From Candidatus Poribacteria bacterium (GTDB lineage Bacteria > Poribacteria > WGA-4E > GCA-2687025), in contig JAPPNK010000004.1 of assembly GCA_028818695.1 (NCBI GenBank), positions 62,001 through 126,000 on the forward strand: a DNA stretch of 64,000 nucleotides, read 5' to 3'. This document shows, in pieces, positions 7,254-64,000 of this stretch. The translations under genes and the position numbers were made by a program. How positions within the stretch are numbered: the first letter of the stretch is position 1; each line of letters begins with the position of its first letter. Below the pieces are notes generated by a model, which was not told where the DNA came from, searched no databases, and saw only the letters and a list, made by a program, of their open reading frames with translations.

Positions 7254-9104
7254 ATGAAACGCCGCTTTCATTGCTTATGCGCTTTCTTGTTGACAGCGTG
7301 CGCGTTCAAGGCGTTCCCGTCGCCGGAGATCTCGCGCCTCAACCTTCCAGAAGGCGCCAAGCTGCGCATCGGCAAAGGTACCATCAACTCGATCGCCTAT
7401 TCTCCAGACGGCAAGCAGCTCGCCGCTGCGGGCAGCGTCGGGGTCTGGATCTACGACGCGCTCTACGGCGGGGAGATCGCGCTGCTTCATGGACACACGG
7501 ACAATGTACATTTGGCGGCGTATTCGCCGAATGGCAAGCGCATCGTCAGCGCAAGCGGCGACAAAACGATTCGCGTCTGGGACGCCGAAACCGGCGAGAC
7601 TCTCAAAACGCTCACTGGACATACCGACGCAGTCTATTCGGCGGCGTATTCTCCTGACGGCAAGCGCATCGTCAGCGCAAGCGAGGACAAGACGGTTCGC
7701 ATCTGGGACGCCGAAACCGGCGGGACGCTCAAAACGATTGAAGGACATACAGAGGCGGTCTATTCGGCGGCGTTTTCGCCGGACGGGACCAAAATTGTCA
7801 GCGCAAGCGGAGATGATACGGTCCGCGTATGGGACGGCGAGACAGGGGCGCTTCTCAACACGCTCAAAGAACATCGAGACAGGGTTATGTCGGCGGCGTA
7901 TTCTCCGGACGGAAAGCGCATCGCCAGCGGGGGATGGGACTCCAATACGCGGATATGGGACGCCGAGACAGGAAATCTTCTCAGTACTCTTGGAAGGGAT
8001 CGGACGAATAGATATCGGATGAAAAACCATCCGGTTGCGTACTCGCCGGACGGGAGAATTCTGGCAGGCGCGGCTCCGCTTCGGCTGCGGCTATGGGCAG
8101 CTGAATCTGGAGCGCCGCTTCCGCCGTTTGACAACAGAAGCGGAGCGAAGGCGTTCGCGTTTTCGCCGGACGGGCATAGCGTCGCAACCGTCGGGGACGA
8201 CAACGCCATCCGCATCTGGAATATCAAGCTTCGCGCTCTGGTCTCTACGATTGATGAACATAAGGGCGGTTTCATGTTTGCCGCGCTGCCGCCGGACGGA
8301 AAGCGTATCGCCGCCGGCCGCGGCGTCCGCATTCAGATATGGGATGCGGAGACAGGCTCCCTCCTCAAAACGCTCAAAGGGCATACAGGTCCGGTCTACT
8401 CGGCGGCGTATTCGTCGGACGGAAAGCGTATCGCCAGCGGGGGCTGGAAAGACGGCGTTCGCATCTGGAACGCGGAGACGGGCGCCCTTCTCAAAACGTT
8501 CTACGCAAATGTCTATTCGGTTGCGTATTCGCCGGACGGCAAGCGGATCGCCAGCGCCAGCGAGAACGGGACCGTGCGCATCTGGGACGCGGGGTCCGGC
8601 AGAGAACTCAAAACGCTCAAAGGACATAGCAAGCCTGTACTCTCGGTTGCGTATTCGCCGGACGGCAAGCGGATCGCCAGCGCCGGCAGCGACCAGACGA
8701 TACGCATCTGGGACGCGGAAACGGGCGCGCGCGTCAAAATGCTCATACATATAAGGGATATCTTTTCGGTCGCATATTCGCCGGACGGAAAGACAATTGT
8801 CAGTTCAGGCTCGTACGACAATGCGCATCTATGGGATGCAGAGACGTTCGTCCATCTCACCGCGCTTGAAGGCGATAAGACCGACATCCATTCGGTTGTC
8901 TATTCGCCGGACGGAAAGACCGTCGCCGGCGCCTGTAAAGACGGGACGGCGCGCATCTGGAACGCGGAGACGGGCGCCCTTCTCAAAACGCTCAAAGGGC
9001 ATTATGAGCCTGTCCGCTGGGCGGAGTATTCGTCAGACGGAAAAATGCTGGCGACCGCAGGCGACGACGGCGCCGTCATCCTTTGGGACGTCTCCGACCT
9101 GTAG
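7254..9104 (+). CDS. WD40-repeat lipoprotein, paralog 1
   Basis: A 616-residue protein with a short export signal ending in a lipobox (LLTAC, Cys16), so probably a lipoprotein outside the cytoplasm. About 14 WD40 units follow, most of the form H-x-x-x-V-x-S-x-A-Y-S-P-D-G-K-R-I-x-S-(A/G)-S...(I/V)-W-D-A-E-T-G. Fourteen units fit two seven-bladed propellers. WD40 propellers are protein-binding scaffolds; no enzymatic domain is visible and the partner is unknown. The central units (about residues 255-340) are more divergent than the rest. This copy is the most distant of the three tandem paralogs. Confidence 0.88.
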   Translation: MKRRFHCLCAFLLTACAFKAFPSPEISRLNLPEGAKLRIGKGTINSIAYSPDGKQLAAAGSVGVWIYDALYGGEIALLHGHTDNVHLAAYSPNGKRIVSASGDKTIRVWDAETGETLKTLTGHTDAVYSAAYSPDGKRIVSASEDKTVRIWDAETGGTLKTIEGHTEAVYSAAFSPDGTKIVSASGDDTVRVWDGETGALLNTLKEHRDRVMSAAYSPDGKRIASGGWDSNTRIWDAETGNLLSTLGRDRTNRYRMKNHPVAYSPDGRILAGAAPLRLRLWAAESGAPLPPFDNRSGAKAFAFSPDGHSVATVGDDNAIRIWNIKLRALVSTIDEHKGGFMFAALPPDGKRIAAGRGVRIQIWDAETGSLLKTLKGHTGPVYSAAYSSDGKRIASGGWKDGVRIWNAETGALLKTFYANVYSVAYSPDGKRIASASENGTVRIWDAGSGRELKTLKGHSKPVLSVAYSPDGKRIASAGSDQTIRIWDAETGARVKMLIHIRDIFSVAYSPDGKTIVSSGSYDNAHLWDAETFVHLTALEGDKTDIHSVVYSPDGKTVAGACKDGTARIWNAETGALLKTLKGHYEPVRWAEYSSDGKMLATAGDDGAVILWDVSDL

Positions 9105-9117
9105 CCGCCCTCCGCCC

Positions 9118-9146
9118 TTGACCCTTCCCCCTCTCTCCTTTAAGCT
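9118..9146 (+). promoter_or_regulatory. Promoter of WD40 copy 2
   Basis: TTGACC (9118-9123), 17 bp, TAAGCT (9141-9146), in a 72-bp intergenic region nearly identical to those before copies 1 and 3. Each paralog therefore seems to be its own transcription unit. Confidence 0.6.
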
Positions 9147-9176
9147 AGAAGAAACCGACTCAAACGGGAGCCGCGC

Positions 9177-11027
9177 ATGAAACGCCGCCTTCATTGCTTA
9201 TGCGTCTGCTTGTTGACAGCGTGCGCGTTCAAGGCGTTCCCGTCGCCGGAGGTCTCGCGCCTCGGCCTTCCAGAAGGCGCCAAGCTGCGCATTGGCAAAG
9301 GTACCATCAACTCGCTCGCCTACTCGCCGGACAGCAGGAGGCTCGCCGCCGCGGGCAGCCTCGGCGTCTGGATCTACGACGCGCTCTACGGGGGCGAGAT
9401 CGCGCTGTTTCAAGGGCATACGCGCGGGGTTTTTTCGGCGGCATATTCCCCAGACGGCAAGAGAATCGTCAGCGCAAGCCGCGACAAAACGGTTCGCATC
9501 TGGGACGCCGAGACCGGCGAAACGCTCAAAACGCTCACTGGACATACCGACGCGGTTTATTCGGCGGCGTATTCTCCTAACGGCAAGCGCATCGCCAGCG
9601 CAAGCGGCGACGCAACGATACGCATCTGGGACGCTGAAACGGGCGCTCTTCTCAAAACGCTGGAAGGGGATGGTTATTCTGCTGTTTATTCAGCGGCGTT
9701 TTCGCCGGAAGGCAAGCGTATCGTCAGCGCGAGCCACCAAAGCGCGATATACATCTGGGACGTCGAGACGGGCGTCCGTCTCAAAACGCTGGAAGGGCAT
9801 ATTTATTCTGTCTATTCGGCGGCGTTTTCGCCGGACGGCAAGCGCATCGCCAGCACAGGCGAAGACGGAAGAGCGCGCATTTGGGACGCTGAGACGGGCG
9901 CCCTTCTCAAAACGCTTAAGCCTCTTATGGCGGGCGGGTTCAATTCGATCGCGTTTTCGCCGGACGGAAAATATCTTGCCGGAGGAGACCGCTCCAACCT
10001 GCAGCTGTGGAACGCCGCCAGCGGCTCGCCTCTTCCGCCGTTTGATCAAAAAGAAAGCGCCTATAGGATCGCATTTTCGCCGGACGGGCATTACATTGCA
10101 AGCGTTCATGGCGATCTCGGCATTCACATTTGGAACATCAAGATACGCGCCCTTGTCCGAGCGATTGAAGGACATACAGATTTCGCCGCGCTCTCACAGG
10201 ACGGCAAGCGAATTGCTGTCGCGTCACAAAGACGCTGGCATATTCAGATACGGGATCTCGACACAGGGGAGCTGCTCAAAACGCTGAAAGGGCAGACGCG
10301 AAGCCAGTCAGCGGCATTTTCGCCGGACGGAAAAGCGATCGTCTGCGCGAGTTTGATGAACTGGACGATTCGCATATGGAATCTTGACACAGGATCGATT
10401 CAAAAATCGCTGACCGGTCATACATCTCCTGTCGCTTCAGCCGCGTATTCTCCAGACGGCAATTGGATCGCCAGCGCGAGTCGGGATAAGACGGTACGCG
10501 TCTGGCATGCCAAAACGGGAATCCTTCTTAAAACGCTGAAAGGGCATACAGGAACCGTCTATTCGGCGTCCTATTCTCCGGACGGCAAACGCATCGCCAG
10601 CGCCAGTTTTGACCAGACGGTACGCGTCTGGGACGCCAAGACAGGCGCGCCTCTCAAAACGCTCAATGGACATACAGGAGGGGTTAAATCTGCCTCATAT
10701 TCTCCGGACAGCAAGCGAATCGTCAGCGCAAGCGACGATAAGACCGTTCGCATTTGGGACGCCGAGACAGGAGCTCTTCTCAAGACGCTCACAGGACATA
10801 CGGAGGATGTTCTTTCAGCGGCGTTTTCGCCGAACGGCAAGCATATTGTCAGCGCGAGCGAGGACGCGACAGCGCGCATCTGGGACGCCGAAACAGGCGC
10901 GCTTCTCAAAACGCTCAAAGGGCATAAAGGATGGGTCGTTTGGGCGGAGTATTTGCCGGACGGAAAGACGCTGGCGACCGCAGGCGGCGACGACGCCGTC
11001 ATCCTTTGGGACGTCTCCGACCTGTAG
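9177..11027 (+). CDS. WD40-repeat lipoprotein, paralog 2
   Basis: Exactly 616 residues like its neighbours, with the same lipobox-type leader (MKRRLHCLCVCLLTAC) and about 14 WD40 units. Bases 9778-10302 are identical, as read, to 11701-12225 in paralog 3. That block encodes the central, least WD40-like units (LNLQLW-type and IQIRDLDTGEL-type strands). Units near the C-terminus differ more between copies. The perfect block inside otherwise diverged genes points to a recent recombination or gene-conversion event. Function unknown; a surface-exposed binding scaffold is the simplest reading. Confidence 0.88.
   Translation: MKRRLHCLCVCLLTACAFKAFPSPEVSRLGLPEGAKLRIGKGTINSLAYSPDSRRLAAAGSLGVWIYDALYGGEIALFQGHTRGVFSAAYSPDGKRIVSASRDKTVRIWDAETGETLKTLTGHTDAVYSAAYSPNGKRIASASGDATIRIWDAETGALLKTLEGDGYSAVYSAAFSPEGKRIVSASHQSAIYIWDVETGVRLKTLEGHIYSVYSAAFSPDGKRIASTGEDGRARIWDAETGALLKTLKPLMAGGFNSIAFSPDGKYLAGGDRSNLQLWNAASGSPLPPFDQKESAYRIAFSPDGHYIASVHGDLGIHIWNIKIRALVRAIEGHTDFAALSQDGKRIAVASQRRWHIQIRDLDTGELLKTLKGQTRSQSAAFSPDGKAIVCASLMNWTIRIWNLDTGSIQKSLTGHTSPVASAAYSPDGNWIASASRDKTVRVWHAKTGILLKTLKGHTGTVYSASYSPDGKRIASASFDQTVRVWDAKTGAPLKTLNGHTGGVKSASYSPDSKRIVSASDDKTVRIWDAETGALLKTLTGHTEDVLSAAFSPNGKHIVSASEDATARIWDAETGALLKTLKGHKGWVVWAEYLPDGKTLATAGGDDAVILWDVSDL
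9778..10302 (+). repeat. 525-bp direct repeat, copy in WD40 paralog 2
   Basis: No difference from 11701-12225 was found when read base by base. The flanks on both sides carry substitutions. The block is internal to the coding sequence and in register (offset 1923 bp). Confidence 0.85.
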
Positions 11028-11040
11028 CCGCCCTCCGCCC

Positions 11041-11069
11041 TTGACCCATCCTCCGCTCTCCTTTAAGCT
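11041..11069 (+). promoter_or_regulatory. Promoter of WD40 copy 3
   Basis: TTGACC (11041-11046), 17 bp, TAAGCT (11064-11069), the third instance of the same promoter in the WD40 array. Confidence 0.6.
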
Positions 11070-11099
11070 AGAAGAAACCGATTCAAACGGGAGCCGCGC

Positions 11100-12950
11100 A
11101 TGAAACGCCGCCTTCATTGCTTATGCGTCTGCTTGTTGACAGCGTGCGCGTTCAAGGCGTTCCCGTCGCCGGAGGTCTCGCGCCTCGGCCTTCCAGAAGG
11201 CGCCAAGCTGCGCATCGGCAAAGGTATCATCAACTCGATCGCCTACTCGCCGGACGGCAAGAGGCTCGCCGCCGCGGGCAGCCTCGGCGTCTGGATCTAC
11301 GACGCGCTTTACGGGGACGAGATCGCACTGCTTCAAGGGCATACGCGCGGGGTCAATTCGGCGGCGTACTCGCCGGACGGGACCAAAATTGTTAGCGCAA
11401 GCAGCGACGCAACGATACGCATCTGGAACGCCGAAACCGGCGAAACGCTCAAAACGCTCACTGGACATACCGACGCGGTCTATTCGGCGGCGTATTCTCC
11501 AGACGGCAAGCGCATCGTCAGCGCAAGCGGCGACGCAACGATACGCATCTGGAACGCCGAAACGGGCGCTCTTCTCAAAACGCTGGAAGGGGATGGTTAT
11601 TCTGCTGTCTATTCAGCGGCGTATTCGCCGGACGGCAAGCGTATCGTCAGCGCGAGCCACCAAAGCGCGATACACATCTGGGACGCCGAAACGGGCGTCC
11701 GTCTCAAAACGCTGGAAGGGCATATTTATTCTGTCTATTCGGCGGCGTTTTCGCCGGACGGCAAGCGCATCGCCAGCACAGGCGAAGACGGAAGAGCGCG
11801 CATTTGGGACGCTGAGACGGGCGCCCTTCTCAAAACGCTTAAGCCTCTTATGGCGGGCGGGTTCAATTCGATCGCGTTTTCGCCGGACGGAAAATATCTT
11901 GCCGGAGGAGACCGCTCCAACCTGCAGCTGTGGAACGCCGCCAGCGGCTCGCCTCTTCCGCCGTTTGATCAAAAAGAAAGCGCCTATAGGATCGCATTTT
12001 CGCCGGACGGGCATTACATTGCAAGCGTTCATGGCGATCTCGGCATTCACATTTGGAACATCAAGATACGCGCCCTTGTCCGAGCGATTGAAGGACATAC
12101 AGATTTCGCCGCGCTCTCACAGGACGGCAAGCGAATTGCTGTCGCGTCACAAAGACGCTGGCATATTCAGATACGGGATCTCGACACAGGGGAGCTGCTC
12201 AAAACGCTGAAAGGGCAGACGCGAAACCAGTCAGCGGCATTTTCGCCGGACGGAAAAGCGATCGTCAGTGCGAGTTGGGGGGACAGGACGATTCGCATAT
12301 GGAATCTTGACACAGGATCGATTCACAAATCGTTGACCGGGCATACATCTTCTGCCGCTTCAGCTGCGTATTCTCCAGACAGCAATTGGATCGCCAGCGC
12401 GAGTTGGGACAAGACGGTACGCGTCTGGCATGCCAAAGCAGGACTCCTTTTCAAAACGCTGGAAGGACATACATGGATCGTCTCTTCGGCGGCGTTTTCG
12501 CCGGACGGCAAACGCATCGTCAGCGCGAGTTGGGACAAGACGGTACGCGTCTGGGACTTCCTGACGGGCGCGCTTCTCAACACGCTCACCGGGCATACAG
12601 AGAACGTCTATTCGGCAGAGTATTCGCCGGACGGCAAACGCATCGCCAGCGCAAGCAGCGACAAAACGGTACGCGTCTGGGATGCCGAAACGGGCGCCCT
12701 TCTCAACACGCTTGCCGGGCATACGGGCTATATCCGCTCGGCCGCGTACTCTCCGGACGGCAAGCATATCGTCAGCGCAAGCGACGACGCGACAGCGCGC
12801 ATCTGGGACGCCGAGACGGGCGCCCTTCTCAAAACGATCAAAGGGCATAAAGAATGGGTCGTTTGGGCGGCGCTTCTGCCGGACGGAAAGACGCTAGCGA
12901 CCGCAAGCCGCGACGGCGTCATCCTCATTTGGGATGTTTCCGACCTTTAA
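11100..12950 (+). CDS. WD40-repeat lipoprotein, paralog 3
   Basis: Third 616-residue paralog, with leader ending in LLTAC and about 14 WD40 units ending in ILIWDVSDL. It shares the 525-bp perfect block with paralog 2. Outside it, the units after residue 400 differ at many surface positions (for example GKAIVSASWGDRTIRIWN against GKAIVCASLMNWTIRIWN). This pattern of conserved framework with changed loop residues would suit a set of binding proteins with different partners, but that is an inference. It is convergent with thiO, 27 bp away. Confidence 0.88.
   Translation: MKRRLHCLCVCLLTACAFKAFPSPEVSRLGLPEGAKLRIGKGIINSIAYSPDGKRLAAAGSLGVWIYDALYGDEIALLQGHTRGVNSAAYSPDGTKIVSASSDATIRIWNAETGETLKTLTGHTDAVYSAAYSPDGKRIVSASGDATIRIWNAETGALLKTLEGDGYSAVYSAAYSPDGKRIVSASHQSAIHIWDAETGVRLKTLEGHIYSVYSAAFSPDGKRIASTGEDGRARIWDAETGALLKTLKPLMAGGFNSIAFSPDGKYLAGGDRSNLQLWNAASGSPLPPFDQKESAYRIAFSPDGHYIASVHGDLGIHIWNIKIRALVRAIEGHTDFAALSQDGKRIAVASQRRWHIQIRDLDTGELLKTLKGQTRNQSAAFSPDGKAIVSASWGDRTIRIWNLDTGSIHKSLTGHTSSAASAAYSPDSNWIASASWDKTVRVWHAKAGLLFKTLEGHTWIVSSAAFSPDGKRIVSASWDKTVRVWDFLTGALLNTLTGHTENVYSAEYSPDGKRIASASSDKTVRVWDAETGALLNTLAGHTGYIRSAAYSPDGKHIVSASDDATARIWDAETGALLKTIKGHKEWVVWAALLPDGKTLATASRDGVILIWDVSDL
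11701..12225 (+). repeat. 525-bp direct repeat, copy in WD40 paralog 3
   Basis: Partner of the block at 9778-10302; identical as read. Confidence 0.85.
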
Positions 12951-55755: not shown

Positions 55756-56454
55756 ATGAAATTCTCAACAGATCGGACATCTCAACAAGCGACGGATCGG
55801 ACGCCTCAACAAACGAAAGGGCTAGACATCATGAACACAAACGCGACGCGCACATCCACAGTCGAACGCGTCAAGCGCGGACTCAAGAACATTGCCGCCA
55901 CTCTGTTCATTGTTGCTGCGGCATTAGGGTTCTCCATGACTCTGGTACCGAATACATCGCTGCTGCGCGCTGGACTTTTTCACCATCCTGGCTCCTCAGA
56001 CCCCTGCAAAGCTGAAAAAGATGCGCTTGACAAAGCGATAGACGCCAAGAATAAAGCGGAGCGCGAGTACAAAGAAGCGCAAGCAGAGTATGTAATGAAG
56101 AATACGGCTTATGAGGAACAGAAAGACTCTTGGGACGCGCTATATTTGACAGTGATGTCCGTAATCGCCACAGCCACCGCGGGATCAGCGGCTGGTTGCA
56201 CAGTCGTCTGGCCGATCGTCGGCACCATTACTTGCGGGGCTGCGGCAGCGGTTATCGCAGCTATCGGCAGTCTTGGGTTTTTTATAATAGAACATTTGAA
56301 GACAAAGAGCGCAGAGCGAAAAAAGAACAAAGCTGAGAAGAAGCGGGATAAGAAGGGCGAGAAACTAGATGCCAAGAACAAGGATTTGACGGAAGCTAAG
56401 CGAGACCTCAACGATTGTTTGGAAAGAAACAGGAAAGGGTGGCTTGGATTATGA
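55756..56454 (+). CDS. Membrane protein with coiled coils and Gly/Ala-rich hydrophobic hairpin
   Basis: 232 residues, family not recognised. A polar N-terminus is followed by one hydrophobic helix (about 44-66). A charged coiled-coil segment (84-125, PCKAEKDALDKAIDAKNKAE onward) leads to a long Gly/Ala/Ile-rich hydrophobic stretch (about 128-180) that could form a membrane hairpin, then a Lys/Glu coiled coil to the end. This coil-hairpin-coil layout recalls pore-forming or membrane-scaffolding proteins, by shape only. It overlaps the next gene by ATGA. The N-terminus has a near-repeated DRT-x-QQ unit; M26 is an alternative start. Confidence 0.65.
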   Translation: MKFSTDRTSQQATDRTPQQTKGLDIMNTNATRTSTVERVKRGLKNIAATLFIVAAALGFSMTLVPNTSLLRAGLFHHPGSSDPCKAEKDALDKAIDAKNKAEREYKEAQAEYVMKNTAYEEQKDSWDALYLTVMSVIATATAGSAAGCTVVWPIVGTITCGAAAAVIAAIGSLGFFIIEHLKTKSAERKKNKAEKKRDKKGEKLDAKNKDLTEAKRDLNDCLERNRKGWLGL

Positions 56455-57722
56455 AAAATCGGCGGCGGGGCGTTCTTCTTTTGGCTATAGCGGCGGCGGT
56501 CGTTGGCGCGGTCGTTCTGTTCTGGGCGCGCCGTCATTGGGAATTGTCGCCGGGCGTGTTGGAATCTCGATTGTCGGAGCTGGACATCTCGGAGGAGGCG
56601 ATGAAGCGTCTTTCGGAGGATTTATCGGACCTATCAGACGAGGAGCGGGCGCAATTTGCCGACGATTTAGGAATGGATCCTCTGGAAATGGAATGGTGCG
56701 AAATCGCTCTCCGAGTCATCCGTAATGAGTCCAAGCCAGGCGACATGGAGCGCCTGAAGAAGCTGAACGACCTGCTCTTCCCAGGTTATGACGACATTGT
56801 CAAGGAGTGGCTAGAGGAACAGACGCCGGAAGGCAAAGCGAAAAAACGCGCTGAACACGAAGATTTTGTGAAATCGGCGAAGAGACAGCTGGAAAATGCA
56901 ATTGAAATGGAGGAAATGTTGGCTGGCGAGCCAGGCGGCGCGGAGCGGATAGAAGCGATCAAAGCGGCGGAGAGACATCTCAAAGCGGTTGAAAAACGGA
57001 TGTCGGTGGCTCTGGACGAAAACGCAAGCCCGCTTGATCTAACGGCCGCCGAAAAAGAAGCGGTGAAGCAGTATAATTTAATGTCCGACGCAAAAGGGGT
57101 CGCATGGGAGACCCGCGAGCTAGCCCATGCTCGCAAGGCGATTGAACAGCTCCAGCATTGGGAGAGAAACTCGATCGGGGAAGATGATCGGGCGGCCGCC
57201 GCCAAAGCGCTGAAGGCGACGGAAGCATGGGCGGCCGCGTCGGAGGATTATTTGGATATTATGCAGCGCAAGAGGGAGCAGGGCGACGATCAATACTCTA
57301 AAGAAGCGAGCGCCGCAAGCTTAAAGGCGTCTGAAGCCATGCTTGTCGCATATCGGGCTCAACGGAAGTGGGATGAGGTCTATAGAGCCGCGAAGCATTT
57401 GGCGCTGGAGCTTGAGCCTCCGTCAGAAAAAAGCGGCGGCGGCTCCCCTCGTCCAGAGCTTCGCGAGGTTGTGGAAACCCATGCCGCAGAGCTTCAAACG
57501 AAAACGGGCAAGCGGTATGAGCTCCCGCCGCCGTCTCCGCGCTCACCGGACGCCGACGCAAAGAGCAGCCTGAACGCGATGGTTCGCATTGCGAAGGAGT
57601 ATGAGCGGTCGGGCTTCTCCGCAGAGGCGAAGGCGGCGTATGAGCGCGCGCTGGAGTATTTCACCAAAGAAGAGGTTGAGGAAGCGCTCCGCCGCATCAA
57701 CGAAAGCGCAGACCGCCGCTAG
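56451..57722 (+). CDS. Single-pass membrane protein, tandem paralog A
   Basis: 423 residues, family not recognised. RRRGVLLLAIAAAVVGAVVLFW (about 5-26) is an N-terminal anchor. The rest is acidic, helical and probably periplasmic, with LESRLSELDISEEAMKRLSE near the start, Ala-rich helices in the middle and a TPR-like C-terminus (LNAMVRIAKEYERSGFSAEA, KAAYERALEYFTKEEVEEAL). Bases 56463-56830 and 57351-57736 are identical to the matching parts of paralog B, while the middle (56831-57350) is diverged. It overlaps the preceding membrane gene by 4 bp and so belongs to the sigma-led operon. Confidence 0.72.
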   Translation: MKNRRRGVLLLAIAAAVVGAVVLFWARRHWELSPGVLESRLSELDISEEAMKRLSEDLSDLSDEERAQFADDLGMDPLEMEWCEIALRVIRNESKPGDMERLKKLNDLLFPGYDDIVKEWLEEQTPEGKAKKRAEHEDFVKSAKRQLENAIEMEEMLAGEPGGAERIEAIKAAERHLKAVEKRMSVALDENASPLDLTAAEKEAVKQYNLMSDAKGVAWETRELAHARKAIEQLQHWERNSIGEDDRAAAAKALKATEAWAAASEDYLDIMQRKREQGDDQYSKEASAASLKASEAMLVAYRAQRKWDEVYRAAKHLALELEPPSEKSGGGSPRPELREVVETHAAELQTKTGKRYELPPPSPRSPDADAKSSLNAMVRIAKEYERSGFSAEAKAAYERALEYFTKEEVEEALRRINESADRR

Positions 57723-57752
57723 GCGATGCCGATATAAAGGATGGCTTAGATT

Positions 57753-59036
57753 ATGAAAAATCGTCGGCGGGGCGTTCTTCTTTTGGCTATAGCGGCGGCG
57801 GTCGTTGGCGCGGTCGTTCTGTTCTGGGCGCGCCGTCATTGGGAATTGTCGCCGGGCGTGTTGGAATCTCGATTGTCGGAGCTGGACATCTCGGAGGAGG
57901 CGATGAAGCGTCTTTCGGAGGATTTATCGGACCTATCAGACGAGGAGCGGGCGCAATTTGCCGACGATTTAGGAATGGATCCTCTGGAAATGGAATGGTG
58001 CGAAATCGCTCTCCGAGTCATCCGTAATGAGTCCAAGCCAGGCGACATGGAGCGCCTGAAGAAGCTGAACGACCTGCTCTTCCCAGGTTATGACGACATT
58101 GTCAAGGAGTGGCTAGAGGAACAGACGCCGGAGGGCAAAGCGAAGAAACGCGCTGAATACGAAGAGCATATAACGATGGCAAAAGATAGCTTGGAAAATG
58201 CAATTGAAATGGAGGCAATGTTGGCTGGCGAGCCAGGCGGCGCGGAGCGGATAGAAGTGATCAAAGCGGCGGAGCGGCACCTCGCAGCCGTCGAGAAGTG
58301 GGTATCGATAGAGCTGAACGAAAACTCAAACCCGCTTGATCACTCGTTTAATCTAAAGGACGCCATAATTGAAGTGGAGAAGCAGGATGTTTTAATGTCC
58401 GATGCATATAGCGTCGCATGGGAGACCCGCGAGCTAGCCCATGCTCGCAAGGCAATTGAACAGCTCCAGCATTGGGAGAAAAACTCGATCGGGGAAGAAG
58501 ATCGGACGGCAGCTGCCAAAGCGCTGAAGGCGGCGGAAGCATGGGCGGCCGCGTCGGAGGAATTTTTGGATATTATGCGGCGCAAGAGAGAGCAGGACAA
58601 CTATCGTTTCTCTGAAGAAGCGAGCGCCGCAAAATTAAAGGCGTCTGACGCCATGCTTGTCGCGTATCGGGCTCAACGGAAGTGGGATGAGGTCTATAGA
58701 GCCGCGAAGCATTTGGCGCTGGAGCTTGAGCCTCCGTCAGAAAAAAGCGGCGGCGGCTCCCCTCGTCCAGAGCTTCGCGAGGTTGTGGAAACCCATGCCG
58801 CAGAGCTTCAAACGAAAACGGGCAAGCGGTATGAGCTCCCGCCGCCGTCTCCGCGCTCACCGGACGCCGACGCAAAGAGCAGCCTGAACGCGATGGTTCG
58901 CATTGCGAAGGAGTATGAGCGGTCGGGCTTCTCCGCAGAGGCGAAGGCGGCGTATGAGCGCGCGCTGGAGTATTTCACCAAAGAAGAGGTTGAGGAAGCG
59001 CTCCGCCGCATCAACGAAAGCGCAGACCGCCGCTAG
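57753..59036 (+). CDS. Single-pass membrane protein, tandem paralog B
   Basis: 427 residues, same anchor, acidic helical body and TPR-like end as paralog A, starting 30 bp after it. The first 368 bp after codon 4 and the last 372 coding bases, plus 14 bases after the stop, are identical to paralog A. The middle 532 bp differ by many substitutions and four extra codons (for example EEHITMAKDSLENAIEMEAM against EDFVKSAKRQLENAIEMEEM). Function unknown. Identical termini could let the two proteins co-assemble while the middles differ in binding. Confidence 0.72.
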   Translation: MKNRRRGVLLLAIAAAVVGAVVLFWARRHWELSPGVLESRLSELDISEEAMKRLSEDLSDLSDEERAQFADDLGMDPLEMEWCEIALRVIRNESKPGDMERLKKLNDLLFPGYDDIVKEWLEEQTPEGKAKKRAEYEEHITMAKDSLENAIEMEAMLAGEPGGAERIEVIKAAERHLAAVEKWVSIELNENSNPLDHSFNLKDAIIEVEKQDVLMSDAYSVAWETRELAHARKAIEQLQHWEKNSIGEEDRTAAAKALKAAEAWAAASEEFLDIMRRKREQDNYRFSEEASAAKLKASDAMLVAYRAQRKWDEVYRAAKHLALELEPPSEKSGGGSPRPELREVVETHAAELQTKTGKRYELPPPSPRSPDADAKSSLNAMVRIAKEYERSGFSAEAKAAYERALEYFTKEEVEEALRRINESADRR

Positions 59037-60797: not shown

Positions 60798-61754
60798 ATG
60801 AATATAGAGGAGCGGAACGACAAGACGGGCGAAAACGAAACGGCAGACGCGGTCGTCGTCATTGAAAGTCCCGATCAGATTGATCAGCGGGACGATCAGG
60901 AGATTGTCCAGATGATGACGGGGCAGGCGATCGACGCCTATGTGTATTCGTTTCGGTCCGGCGGCAAGACGGTTGAGGGGCTGACGTTGGCGGGCGTCAA
61001 CGAGGCGGCGAATCGGCGCGGAGGCATACAGGTCGAAGAGGCGCAGTACGAGGATCGGGAGAATTCCTGGATCGCCGTTGTGAAGGCGACCGACACGTTG
61101 ACGGGCAATTCCCGCTACGGCGCCTGCGAGCAGCCGAAAAAACAGGGCGGGCGCGACGATCCGTATGCGTTCACAAAGGCGGTTCACAAGGCGCAGCGCA
61201 ACGCTGTCAAGCAGCTGCTGCCGACGCCGGTCATTCAGGAGGTGATCAGTTTTTATCTGCAGGCGAAGGGGCGGAGGAGCCGTCCAATCCAGGCGCCGCC
61301 GAAGAAGCCTTTGAACGACAAGATCACGAATCATCAGAAAGCGGCGTTTGCGGCGGCGCAAAAGCTGCGCAGCCGTTTTGAGAACGAAGGGGTGTCGCAG
61401 GACGATTTTTGGAACTATGTGCGCCGGCGGTTTCATGTGGAATCGCGCAACGACATGCGGGAGGATCACTGGGCACAGCTGGCGGCGGAGCTGTCGGCGG
61501 CGTCTCGGGATGCGGGTCTGTTTAAGGAGCTGGCGGCGAAGACGCGGCAGATACTGCGCGCGCAAGAGGAAACAGGCGGCGCGTCCAAGCCGAAAGAAAC
61601 GACTCCCGAAACGCCCGCTTCTCATAACAAGTCGGAGGAGTCGGATACATCGAACGAAGCGGCGGCCGCCAACATGAAGGCGGAAGCGGTCGATATGTCC
61701 GCCTCCGCTCCGTCAGAGAACGGCGCCGTTCCAAAACGGGACCTTCTCTTTTAA
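60798..61754 (+). CDS. Uncharacterised protein, possible ssDNA-annealing (ERF/Rad52-like) type
   Basis: 318 residues, no signal or membrane segment. Residues about 30-165 have the order VYSFRSGGKTVEGLTLAGVN, WIAVVKATDTLTGNSRYGAC, YAFTKAVHKAQRNAVKQLLP. This resembles, by eye, phage and plasmid proteins proposed as single-strand annealing or DNA-metabolism factors (G-x-S/T-x-x-x-x-N-E core, KAxxKAQRNAxxxLLP helix). The C-terminal third is Ala/Glu/Ser/Thr-rich and ends VPKRDLLF, like the short acidic-aromatic tails that bind SSB-type partners. The assignment is tentative. Confidence 0.5.
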   Translation: MNIEERNDKTGENETADAVVVIESPDQIDQRDDQEIVQMMTGQAIDAYVYSFRSGGKTVEGLTLAGVNEAANRRGGIQVEEAQYEDRENSWIAVVKATDTLTGNSRYGACEQPKKQGGRDDPYAFTKAVHKAQRNAVKQLLPTPVIQEVISFYLQAKGRRSRPIQAPPKKPLNDKITNHQKAAFAAAQKLRSRFENEGVSQDDFWNYVRRRFHVESRNDMREDHWAQLAAELSAASRDAGLFKELAAKTRQILRAQEETGGASKPKETTPETPASHNKSEESDTSNEAAAANMKAEAVDMSASAPSENGAVPKRDLLF

Positions 61755-62069: not shown

Positions 62070-62103
62070 GGGCGAAGGCGCCTCGACGGTCTTGGAGAGA
62101 GCC

Positions 62104-63231
62104 ATGCCGCAAACGCCCAACATCGCCGTTCTGCATGACGCCCTTGCTGTGTACCGAAACGAAATGCGCGTCTTTATCCCAAAAGCGCTCAAGCGGGTCA
62201 AGGGGCGCGGCAACCTGCAAACGCTCGTCAGCGATGCGATGCATCGAGACCGCGTGAGCCAATTCAACCGAGAGCTGCTTCAAAACGGCGGAAATGTCGG
62301 CGCCGCGCTTGACATCGGCGATTTTCCCGACATTATTCGAACCTACTGGCGCGATGCGTTTGAGAACGACTTCGGCTCCGACCGCATGTTCCAAAGCTTG
62401 ACCTATCTCATCCGCTCGGCGCGAAACGCCGCCGCCCACCCAGGCGACAGCGATATGGACAAAGAGCGGTCGCGGTCGCATTTAACATTGATCGCGCAAG
62501 CCTTGGGCATGATCGGCGTGGAGAACGCTCGGCGCGAAGTGGAGTCGATCCGAAACCGCTCCTTTCCGCTGCGCGACTCTCCGTACACTCTCGGCGCCGA
62601 GATTCCGTTCGCGGGCATGGACCTGTCCGATCTGGCTGAAGAGGCAAGCGGCTGCCGGCGCTGCCGGCTTCATTTTGACCGAAAGCATGTCGTTTTTGGC
62701 GAAGGTCCCCCCGACGCCGACCTCATGCTGATCGGGCTGGCGCCTGAAGAAGCGGAGGACCGAAAAGGCAAGCCGTATCAGATGCCGGAGCCGAAAACGC
62801 GCTTGGAGAGCCTGATCGCAGCGGCGGACCTGCGCCGAGAGGATGTGTATGTCGCTTATCTGTTGAAATGCCGCTTGTCGGCAGACGGGCGCGCGTTTTG
62901 GCGGGAGACGGAGCGGTGCCGTCCGTATCTGCTTCGGCAGATTGAGCGCATTCAGCCGCGGGTGATTGTCGCGCTGGGCGAGGAGGCTGCGTCGGCGCTG
63001 ATAGAGGCGGAGTTTGCTCTCGGCGCTTTTTCGGATGTCGACGGCATCCGCGTCATGCCGACGCATCCGCTGGAAGGTCCGCCGTCCAGCGCGTTTCAAC
63101 GGCGCGTCACAGCGGCAGACGGGAGCCAGCTCATGATGGATCTGGACGCGCCAATCAACGCCCGAGCGCGCATGGACAGAGAGGGAAAAACGCATATGGC
63201 GCTTGTCAAAACGGAACTGGAACGCGCCTGA
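62104..63231 (+). CDS. HEPN-uracil-DNA glycosylase fusion protein
   Basis: 375 residues. The N-terminal half (about 8-140) is helical, with IRSARNAAAHPGD carrying Arg107-Asn108-x3-His112, the RN(x3)H motif of HEPN RNase domains, in a Swt1-HEPN-like setting (DIIRTYWRDAFENDFG before it). The C-terminal half (about 172-345) follows family-4 uracil-DNA glycosylase. Cys184, Cys187, Cys256 and Cys272 match the four Fe-S ligands. VVFGEGPPDADLMLIGLAPE is motif A with AP-E in place of APG, EDVYVAYLLKCR and RPYLLRQIERIQPRVIVALG follow, and THPLEG stands where HPS is usual. GGAG at 62094-62097 sets ATG 62104. priA begins directly at its stop. Such a fusion is not one I recognise from characterised proteins. 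Confidence 0.75.
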   Translation: MPQTPNIAVLHDALAVYRNEMRVFIPKALKRVKGRGNLQTLVSDAMHRDRVSQFNRELLQNGGNVGAALDIGDFPDIIRTYWRDAFENDFGSDRMFQSLTYLIRSARNAAAHPGDSDMDKERSRSHLTLIAQALGMIGVENARREVESIRNRSFPLRDSPYTLGAEIPFAGMDLSDLAEEASGCRRCRLHFDRKHVVFGEGPPDADLMLIGLAPEEAEDRKGKPYQMPEPKTRLESLIAAADLRREDVYVAYLLKCRLSADGRAFWRETERCRPYLLRQIERIQPRVIVALGEEAASALIEAEFALGAFSDVDGIRVMPTHPLEGPPSSAFQRRVTAADGSQLMMDLDAPINARARMDREGKTHMALVKTELERA

Positions 63232-64000
63232 ATGTCGGAACTTTACGCCGCTGTCGCGTTTCCGACGCCTGTGGACAAGCTGTTTTCCTACCGCGTTCCG
63301 GAGGAGCTGGTCGGCGCGGTTCAGCCTGGATGCCGCGTGACCGCTTCGCTGCGCGGCAGGCGTTTGGAGGGGGTCGCGGCGGAATTGCGGACGGAGGCGG
63401 GCGTGGAGGCTCCGCGCGTGCTGCCGTTGTTGAGCTGTCTGGACGAGTCGCCCTTTTTCTCGCGGGAGATGCTGGAACTGTGCCGCTGGGTCGGCGACTA
63501 CTATCTCTGTTCATGGGGGGAGGCGCTTGCCGCGGCGTCCCCGTCGAGCGCGCGGCGCAAACCGAGGCGCCCCCTCGGCATACGGCTCGCCGTTTCATCT
63601 GAACAGGCGCTGGAGCAGGCGGAACTCAAACAAAAAAAAGCGCCGAAGCAAGCCGCGCTGCTGGAGTACCTATGCAGGCAGTTTGAGCCGATTCCCGCCG
63701 CGTCTGCGGTTCAGGCGGCGAATGCGTCCTATGCGACGGCGCGCGCTCTGCAGGCGCAGGGGCTGGCAATTGTGGAGCCTTTGCCGGAAGAAAGCGCCCT
63801 TCCGCCAGAGCAGAGCGCGTCGTTTGAATTGAGCGACTCCCCGCTTCAGCTGAACCCGGAGCAGGCTGCCGCGTATAAAGCGCTGCGCGCCGCTGTCCTG
63901 TCGGAGACGGCGTCCCGCTTCCTGCTCTACGGGGTAACGGGCAGCGGCAAAACGGAGGTGTATATGCAGGCGATGCAGGAGGCGGTCGCGCGGGGGCGTT
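63232..64000 (+). CDS. priA: Primosomal helicase PriA, N-terminal part
   Basis: The first 256 residues of PriA, cut by the window edge. It starts MSELYAAVAFPTPVDKLFSY, the 3'-DNA-binding domain with the typical VxVPxPLxxxFxY pattern, continues through PGCRVTASLRGRRLEGVAAE and the winged-helix region, and reaches the helicase P-loop LLYGVTGSGKTEVYMQAMQE near residue 240. PriA restarts stalled replication forks. ATG 63232 directly follows the TGA of the HEPN-UDG gene, so the two are probably co-translated. Confidence 0.93.
   Translation, partial: MSELYAAVAFPTPVDKLFSYRVPEELVGAVQPGCRVTASLRGRRLEGVAAELRTEAGVEAPRVLPLLSCLDESPFFSREMLELCRWVGDYYLCSWGEALAAASPSSARRKPRRPLGIRLAVSSEQALEQAELKQKKAPKQAALLEYLCRQFEPIPAASAVQAANASYATARALQAQGLAIVEPLPEESALPPEQSASFELSDSPLQLNPEQAAAYKALRAAVLSETASRFLLYGVTGSGKTEVYMQAMQEAVARGR

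Follow-up and report, generated by a model that had tools for sequence, protein, structure and literature searches.

The 64,000-nucleotide segment of Candidatus Poribacteria DNA analysed here, referred to below as the window, carries near its end a gene (62104–63231, plus strand) for a 375-residue protein in which a Swt1-like HEPN domain is joined to a family-4 uracil-DNA glycosylase (UDG) domain, a fusion that originated at the udg-priA locus. A HEPN RNase combined with a sensor module is a common pattern in phage defence, and the architecture of this protein suggests a DNA-sensing switch that cuts RNA. Our reading of it as a single-chain sensor-effector derived from a duplicated udg, in which a catalytically dead UDG fold would read DNA or a partner protein and gate the HEPN RNase, stands in our judgement about an even chance of being correct. 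If this model holds, it shows how a repair enzyme with a housekeeping role can be turned into a DNA sensor while giving up its chemistry, and the fusion offers a small two-domain protein for direct tests of base sensing and RNA cleavage.

Domain composition of the fusion protein

The reading frame at 62104–63231 contains no internal stop codon and includes its own at the end. A Shine-Dalgarno sequence (GGAGAG, 62094–62099) precedes the start at 62104, which agrees with the N termini of homologues, and the stop codon directly abuts the ATG of priA (63232–63999, plus strand, running past the window end; PriA_3primeBD, E 2.7e-25). A frame or assembly artefact can be discarded as the source of the fusion: no stop interrupts the frame, a second contig shows HEPN and UDG in the same order, each of the two fusions is internal to a long contig, and the codon-position GC of the window gene is normal and like that of the neighbouring genes.

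The two halves of the protein were modelled separately with AlphaFold. The Swt1-like HEPN domain occupies residues 13–136 (62140–62511), and the model of this half is a confident, all-helical bundle (pLDDT 90.1). When residues 1–167 alone are the query, Pfam HEPN_Swt1 (PF18731) is matched with E 1e-6 and 29.4 bits against a curated cut-off of 27.5, while the whole protein scores 26.8 bits, just under that value. The active-site motif R107-N108-A-A-A-H112 (62422–62439) lies where the initial annotation had placed it. In the aligned family, comprising the window protein and 32 relatives, 31 of the 33 members match PF18731; R107 is found in 32/33, N108 in 28/33 and H112 in 33/33, giving the near-invariant R and H of the Rx4-6H motif that characterises Swt1-like HEPN domains. 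A profile search against PDB sequences returned nothing significant, and in a PDB fold search with the model the top probability among the matches listed went to yeast Swt1 (4pqz, 0.41), with a non-significant E of 1.7. Since no fold match reached significance, it is the profile, the conserved motif and the homologues that carry the HEPN assignment. With the motif kept in these homologues and the model confidently all-helical, the HEPN bundle that had first been proposed is not contradicted and remains probable, and this half of the protein is a predicted RNase.

The C-terminal half (residues 162–375, 62587–63228, with the Pfam UDG match, PF03167, at 198–319, E 7e-21) is derived from a family-4 UDG. 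Its model (pLDDT 83.7) adopts the family-4 fold, the best PDB match being Thermus UDGa (1ui0, E 9.5e-17). For comparison we used 30 canonical UDGs, made up of relatives and the canonical copy of the source genome itself. Much of the UDG core is retained, as are all four Fe-S cysteines, in agreement with the initial annotation: C184 and C187 (CxxC, 62653–62664) are invariant across this canonical set and in either fusion of the genome, the second of which is described below, and C256 and C272 (62869–62919) lie around a lost PPxNRxP loop. In Thermus (Tth) numbering, E41, G44, N80 and N89 are all changed. Motif 1, canonically GEAPGxxED, reads GLAPEEAED (62734–62760), with L212 for the Glu and E215 for the Gly in the alignment to 1ui0, so that the change from APG to APE reported earlier is real. 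The uracil-reading Asn (N80), present in 30/30 canonical UDGs, is Tyr in both fusions (Y252, 62857–62859), and N89 has become D261; these two replacements and the disappearance of two loops, FVGRAG and PPxNRxP, go beyond what had been noted before, as do the second fusion and the ancestral udg-priA order described below. In motif 2 the His-Pro pair is kept (H321, P322; 63064–63069) and the HPAYLLRN-type loop that follows it is lost. The change here had been described as HPS to HPL, which is right for the window protein, where Leu follows the HP, but not for its starting point, the canonical form in this phylum being HPAYLLRN. All three loops are mostly changed, and among the active-site residues E41, N80, N89 and H155 the motif-2 His is the only one left; E47 and an aromatic residue at F54 are kept as well (Tyr, a substitution that Tth UDGa tolerates as F54Y; PMC5387724). 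Losses in the window protein are concentrated in the catalytic and DNA-contact motifs, a set picked post hoc from the alignment, where they amount to 23/31 against 8/44 elsewhere (Fisher p ~1e-6). The protein scores 102.1 bits with TIGR00758 (E 2.6e-29), below the cut-off of 125.3 and compared with 220.3 for the genome’s canonical UDG, and it is no UdgX by TIGR03914 (77.4 against a cut-off of 189.95).

The consequences of such changes have been measured in Tth UDGa, where E41Q costs ~890-fold in activity and showed no binding of uracil-DNA, N80A costs >40-fold and N89A ~7-fold (PMC5387724). Since single mutants at the matching positions thus lose ~7- to 890-fold, no useful uracil excision is predicted for the fusion, and the combined changes at E41, G44, N80, N89 and in the loops make uracil excision by the UDG half very unlikely.

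Origin at the udg-priA locus

A second HEPN-UDG fusion is encoded on another contig of the same genome (L009:5374–7548, minus strand). It is 724 residues long and consists of three HEPN-like repeats and a degenerate UDG; R and H occur only in the first repeat, repeats 2 and 3 being degenerate. Most of the same UDG motif positions have been lost, with replacements that mostly differ from those of the window protein apart from the shared Tyr, while parts of the FVGRAG region are kept along with the Fe-S cysteines and the core. The gene is flanked by the canonical udg and by an apparent dCTP deaminase gene, recognised by eye from the sequence. In the UDG tree the two fusions are sisters (95/88), and the HEPN tree groups them as well. 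Their branches in the UDG tree are nevertheless very long, which makes their placement risky. The end branch of the window protein measures 2.47 for its UDG in the UDG tree and a short 0.34 for its HEPN domain in the HEPN tree. The canonical udg of this genome passes TIGR00758, and its persistence would have freed the fusion copies from repair.

In 19 of 22 relatives canonical udg is the gene directly upstream of priA, in the same orientation, and in the other three the udg and priA matches fall on separate contigs. The fullest ancestral run reads rseP-ispG-...-udg-priA-HAD phosphatase. In the source genome it is split between two contigs, as rseP-ispG-udg-(HEPN3-UDG) and (HEPN-UDG)-priA-HAD, and a HEPN-UDG flanks the break on either side. 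The simplest history is a tandem duplication of udg, fusion of one copy to HEPN, a further duplication and then a break between the copies. Because an ordinary udg precedes priA in so many relatives, the adjacency of the fusion to priA is inherited. The initial annotation had seen the priA link as part of a new kind of system; this is not borne out, and coupling to priA as a system is rejected on the grounds of the ancestral synteny.

Distribution of the fusion and of its HEPN module

Only this genome is known to carry the fusion, in two copies. A search for homologues with the same arrangement recovered the second copy and, at the cut-off applied, no further example in 85 genomes from the rest of the phylum, nor in sampled contigs of named genomes, nor among plasmids, phages and viral contigs, where the full-protein scan of viral sequences relied on short exact peptides. 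In seven further genomes HEPN and UDG are present only apart, and a search with the HEPN alignment found a UDG within the HEPN protein at 0/33 HEPN loci from named genomes. Horizontal transfer via phage or plasmid was dropped as an explanation after searches of both yielded no fusion. Among open-licence papers we did not find a report of a UDG fold as a HEPN partner, and the main survey of HEPN domains mentions neither uracil, UDG nor glycosylase (PMC3710099). The source genome also encodes a third UDG-superfamily protein (L012:3847–4449, minus strand) with the motif GQAPS, related copies of which seem to be present across the phylum.

The Swt1-like HEPN domain itself is found at or near the N terminus of many proteins of Poribacteria, where it is often attached to phage-defence proteins, and also in Latescibacterota and Chloroflexota. 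Its Pfam-named partners are DUF499 (called HmaC by PADLOC), DndB, DUF4268, Mrr_N, HTH, the DprA winged helix and Helicase_C, and at two Latescibacterota loci a HEPN-HmaC lies near HmaB. The source genome has a HEPN-DUF499/HmaC ATPase of its own (L010:2743–6108, minus strand), and the 12 kb around it show no evident partner of the methylase or helicase type. Fusion of the domain to HmaC, DndB-like, DUF4268, Mrr_N, HTH and helicase-type modules, with HmaC near HmaB, indicates that sensor-plus-HEPN is a habit of the family. Published surveys (PMC3710099, PMC12839542) count HEPN-DUF499 among the parts of defence systems, its HEPN domain being proposed as a back-up suicide effector. At two loci in Latescibacterota and Chloroflexota (L079:4956–6551 and L089:5001–6605), this HEPN domain is joined to a DndB-like protein, and a second DndB-like gene follows.

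Discussion

Our working model for the origin and action of the fusion is as follows. A housekeeping family-4 udg in front of priA was duplicated, and a Swt1-like HEPN domain was added at the N terminus of one copy. Its UDG portion then shed the residues that read and excise uracil while retaining the Fe-S fold. This catalytically dead fold may bind DNA, whether damaged, single-stranded or modified, or else a partner protein, and such binding would let HEPN domains pair and cut RNA, halting growth under phage attack or severe DNA damage. The analysis establishes the fusion, its family context, the intact HEPN motif, the degraded UDG site, the second copy and the origin at the udg-priA locus; binding of DNA or a partner by the UDG fold, RNA cleavage by the HEPN domain, control of the latter by the former and a role in defence or the stress response are putative. 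For defence the support is only indirect: known defence proteins carry this HEPN module. Against it counts the setting of both copies among housekeeping genes: neither lies in a recognisable defence island, one being beside priA and the other beside udg and the dCTP deaminase-like gene. The more specific proposition, that a non-catalytic DNA sensor directly gates a HEPN RNase within one chain and that this DNA-to-RNA suicide switch arose in place at the housekeeping udg-priA locus, we regard as possible but doubtful.

Individual features of the fusion are found in several known systems. The closest parallel for the HEPN half is the HEPN-DUF499 ATPase of Hma and Type-1 BREX-related (BR) systems, which carries the same N-terminal Swt1-like HEPN domain on a DNA-associated module (PMC3710099, PMC12839542). 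There, however, the partner is an AAA+ ATPase accompanied by a methylase and a helicase, whereas here it is a single-domain UDG relative, and no Hma or Type-1 BR set of DUF499 ATPase, methylase and helicase is found among the ORFs around either fusion, the nearest neighbours of which were profile-searched. With the family-4 UDGa enzymes of Thermus, Thermotoga and Sulfolobus the fusion has in common the fold, the four Fe-S cysteines and a conserved core, and with the UDGa of its own phylum the position upstream of priA; it differs from them in lacking the catalytic and base-reading residues and the DNA-contact loops, and in having a HEPN domain added in front. The CBS-HEPN protein DS-11 likewise combines, in one chain, a HEPN RNase and a sensor domain thought to control it (PMC13092281). 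Its sensor is a CBS domain with an adenine-type ligand and its antiphage activity has been shown, while our protein has a UDG fold in that place.

Brig1 and Brig3 (PMC11078745, PMC13160076) are antiphage glycosylases whose substrates are modified bases, and they too are members of the UDG superfamily that were diverted from repair with a change in base recognition. By analogy, the UDG half of the fusion could be a glycosylase for another, modified phage base, with the HEPN domain as a back-up suicide effector, and the motif-2 His, E47 and aromatic residue at F54 (Tyr) that the window protein retains would be in keeping with this. Yet the Brig proteins are active excision enzymes for which no HEPN domain has been reported, whereas the UDG half of the fusion looks inactive: the motif-1 Glu, the water-positioning Asn and the DNA-contact loops have gone from both copies, E47 is also lost in the second, and the pocket may be occupied by the Tyr that replaces the base-reading Asn. 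We therefore consider Brig-type excision of modified bases unlikely, and likewise this reading of the protein.

The gapless junction between the fusion stop and the priA start would suit a protein that acts with PriA as an accessory of repair or replication restart, its HEPN domain serving only for dimerisation or RNA binding, all the more as the HEPN domain of eukaryotic Swt1 is thought to be inactive (PMC3710099). Such a role appears improbable, given that Rx4H is almost invariant in the bacterial HEPN family, that the adjacency to priA was inherited from udg and that only one of the two copies adjoins priA.

The very long UDG branches also weigh against a sensor-effector, being equally expected from decay. 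Together with the restriction to one genome and the degeneracy of HEPN repeats 2 and 3 in the other copy, they could mark the fusion as a decaying duplicate with no selected function. Against this, neither frame is interrupted (375 and 724 residues), the two proteins preserve the Fe-S cysteines and the UDG core although they have diverged deeply, the losses cluster in the catalytic motifs, and the window HEPN domain is slow-changing in a gene of normal codon-position GC, all of which leaves decay a slim chance. Finally, a remodelled UDG pocket that switches HEPN by sensing a nucleotide (dUTP or dUMP, as a nucleotide-pool alarm) instead of DNA is very improbable: the second copy does adjoin a dCTP deaminase-like gene and canonical udg, and an adenine derivative is the presumed gating ligand of the CBS-HEPN defence protein (PMC13092281), but what UDG folds read is bases in DNA, the Asn that reads uracil has gone, and the identity of the dcd gene rests on recognition by eye.

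Other genes of the window

The gene upstream of the fusion (60798–61754) encodes a 318-residue protein with no match in Pfam or PHROG. As a dedicated partner of the fusion it was rejected, being present in 36 of the 40 Poribacteria genomes searched, all of which but the source genome lack the fusion. Two tandem genes at 56415–59036 encode near-identical proteins of 435 and 427 residues, the second of which was scanned and gave no Pfam match. At 7254–12950, the window holds three tandem 616-residue proteins with WD40-like repeats that are mutually very similar.
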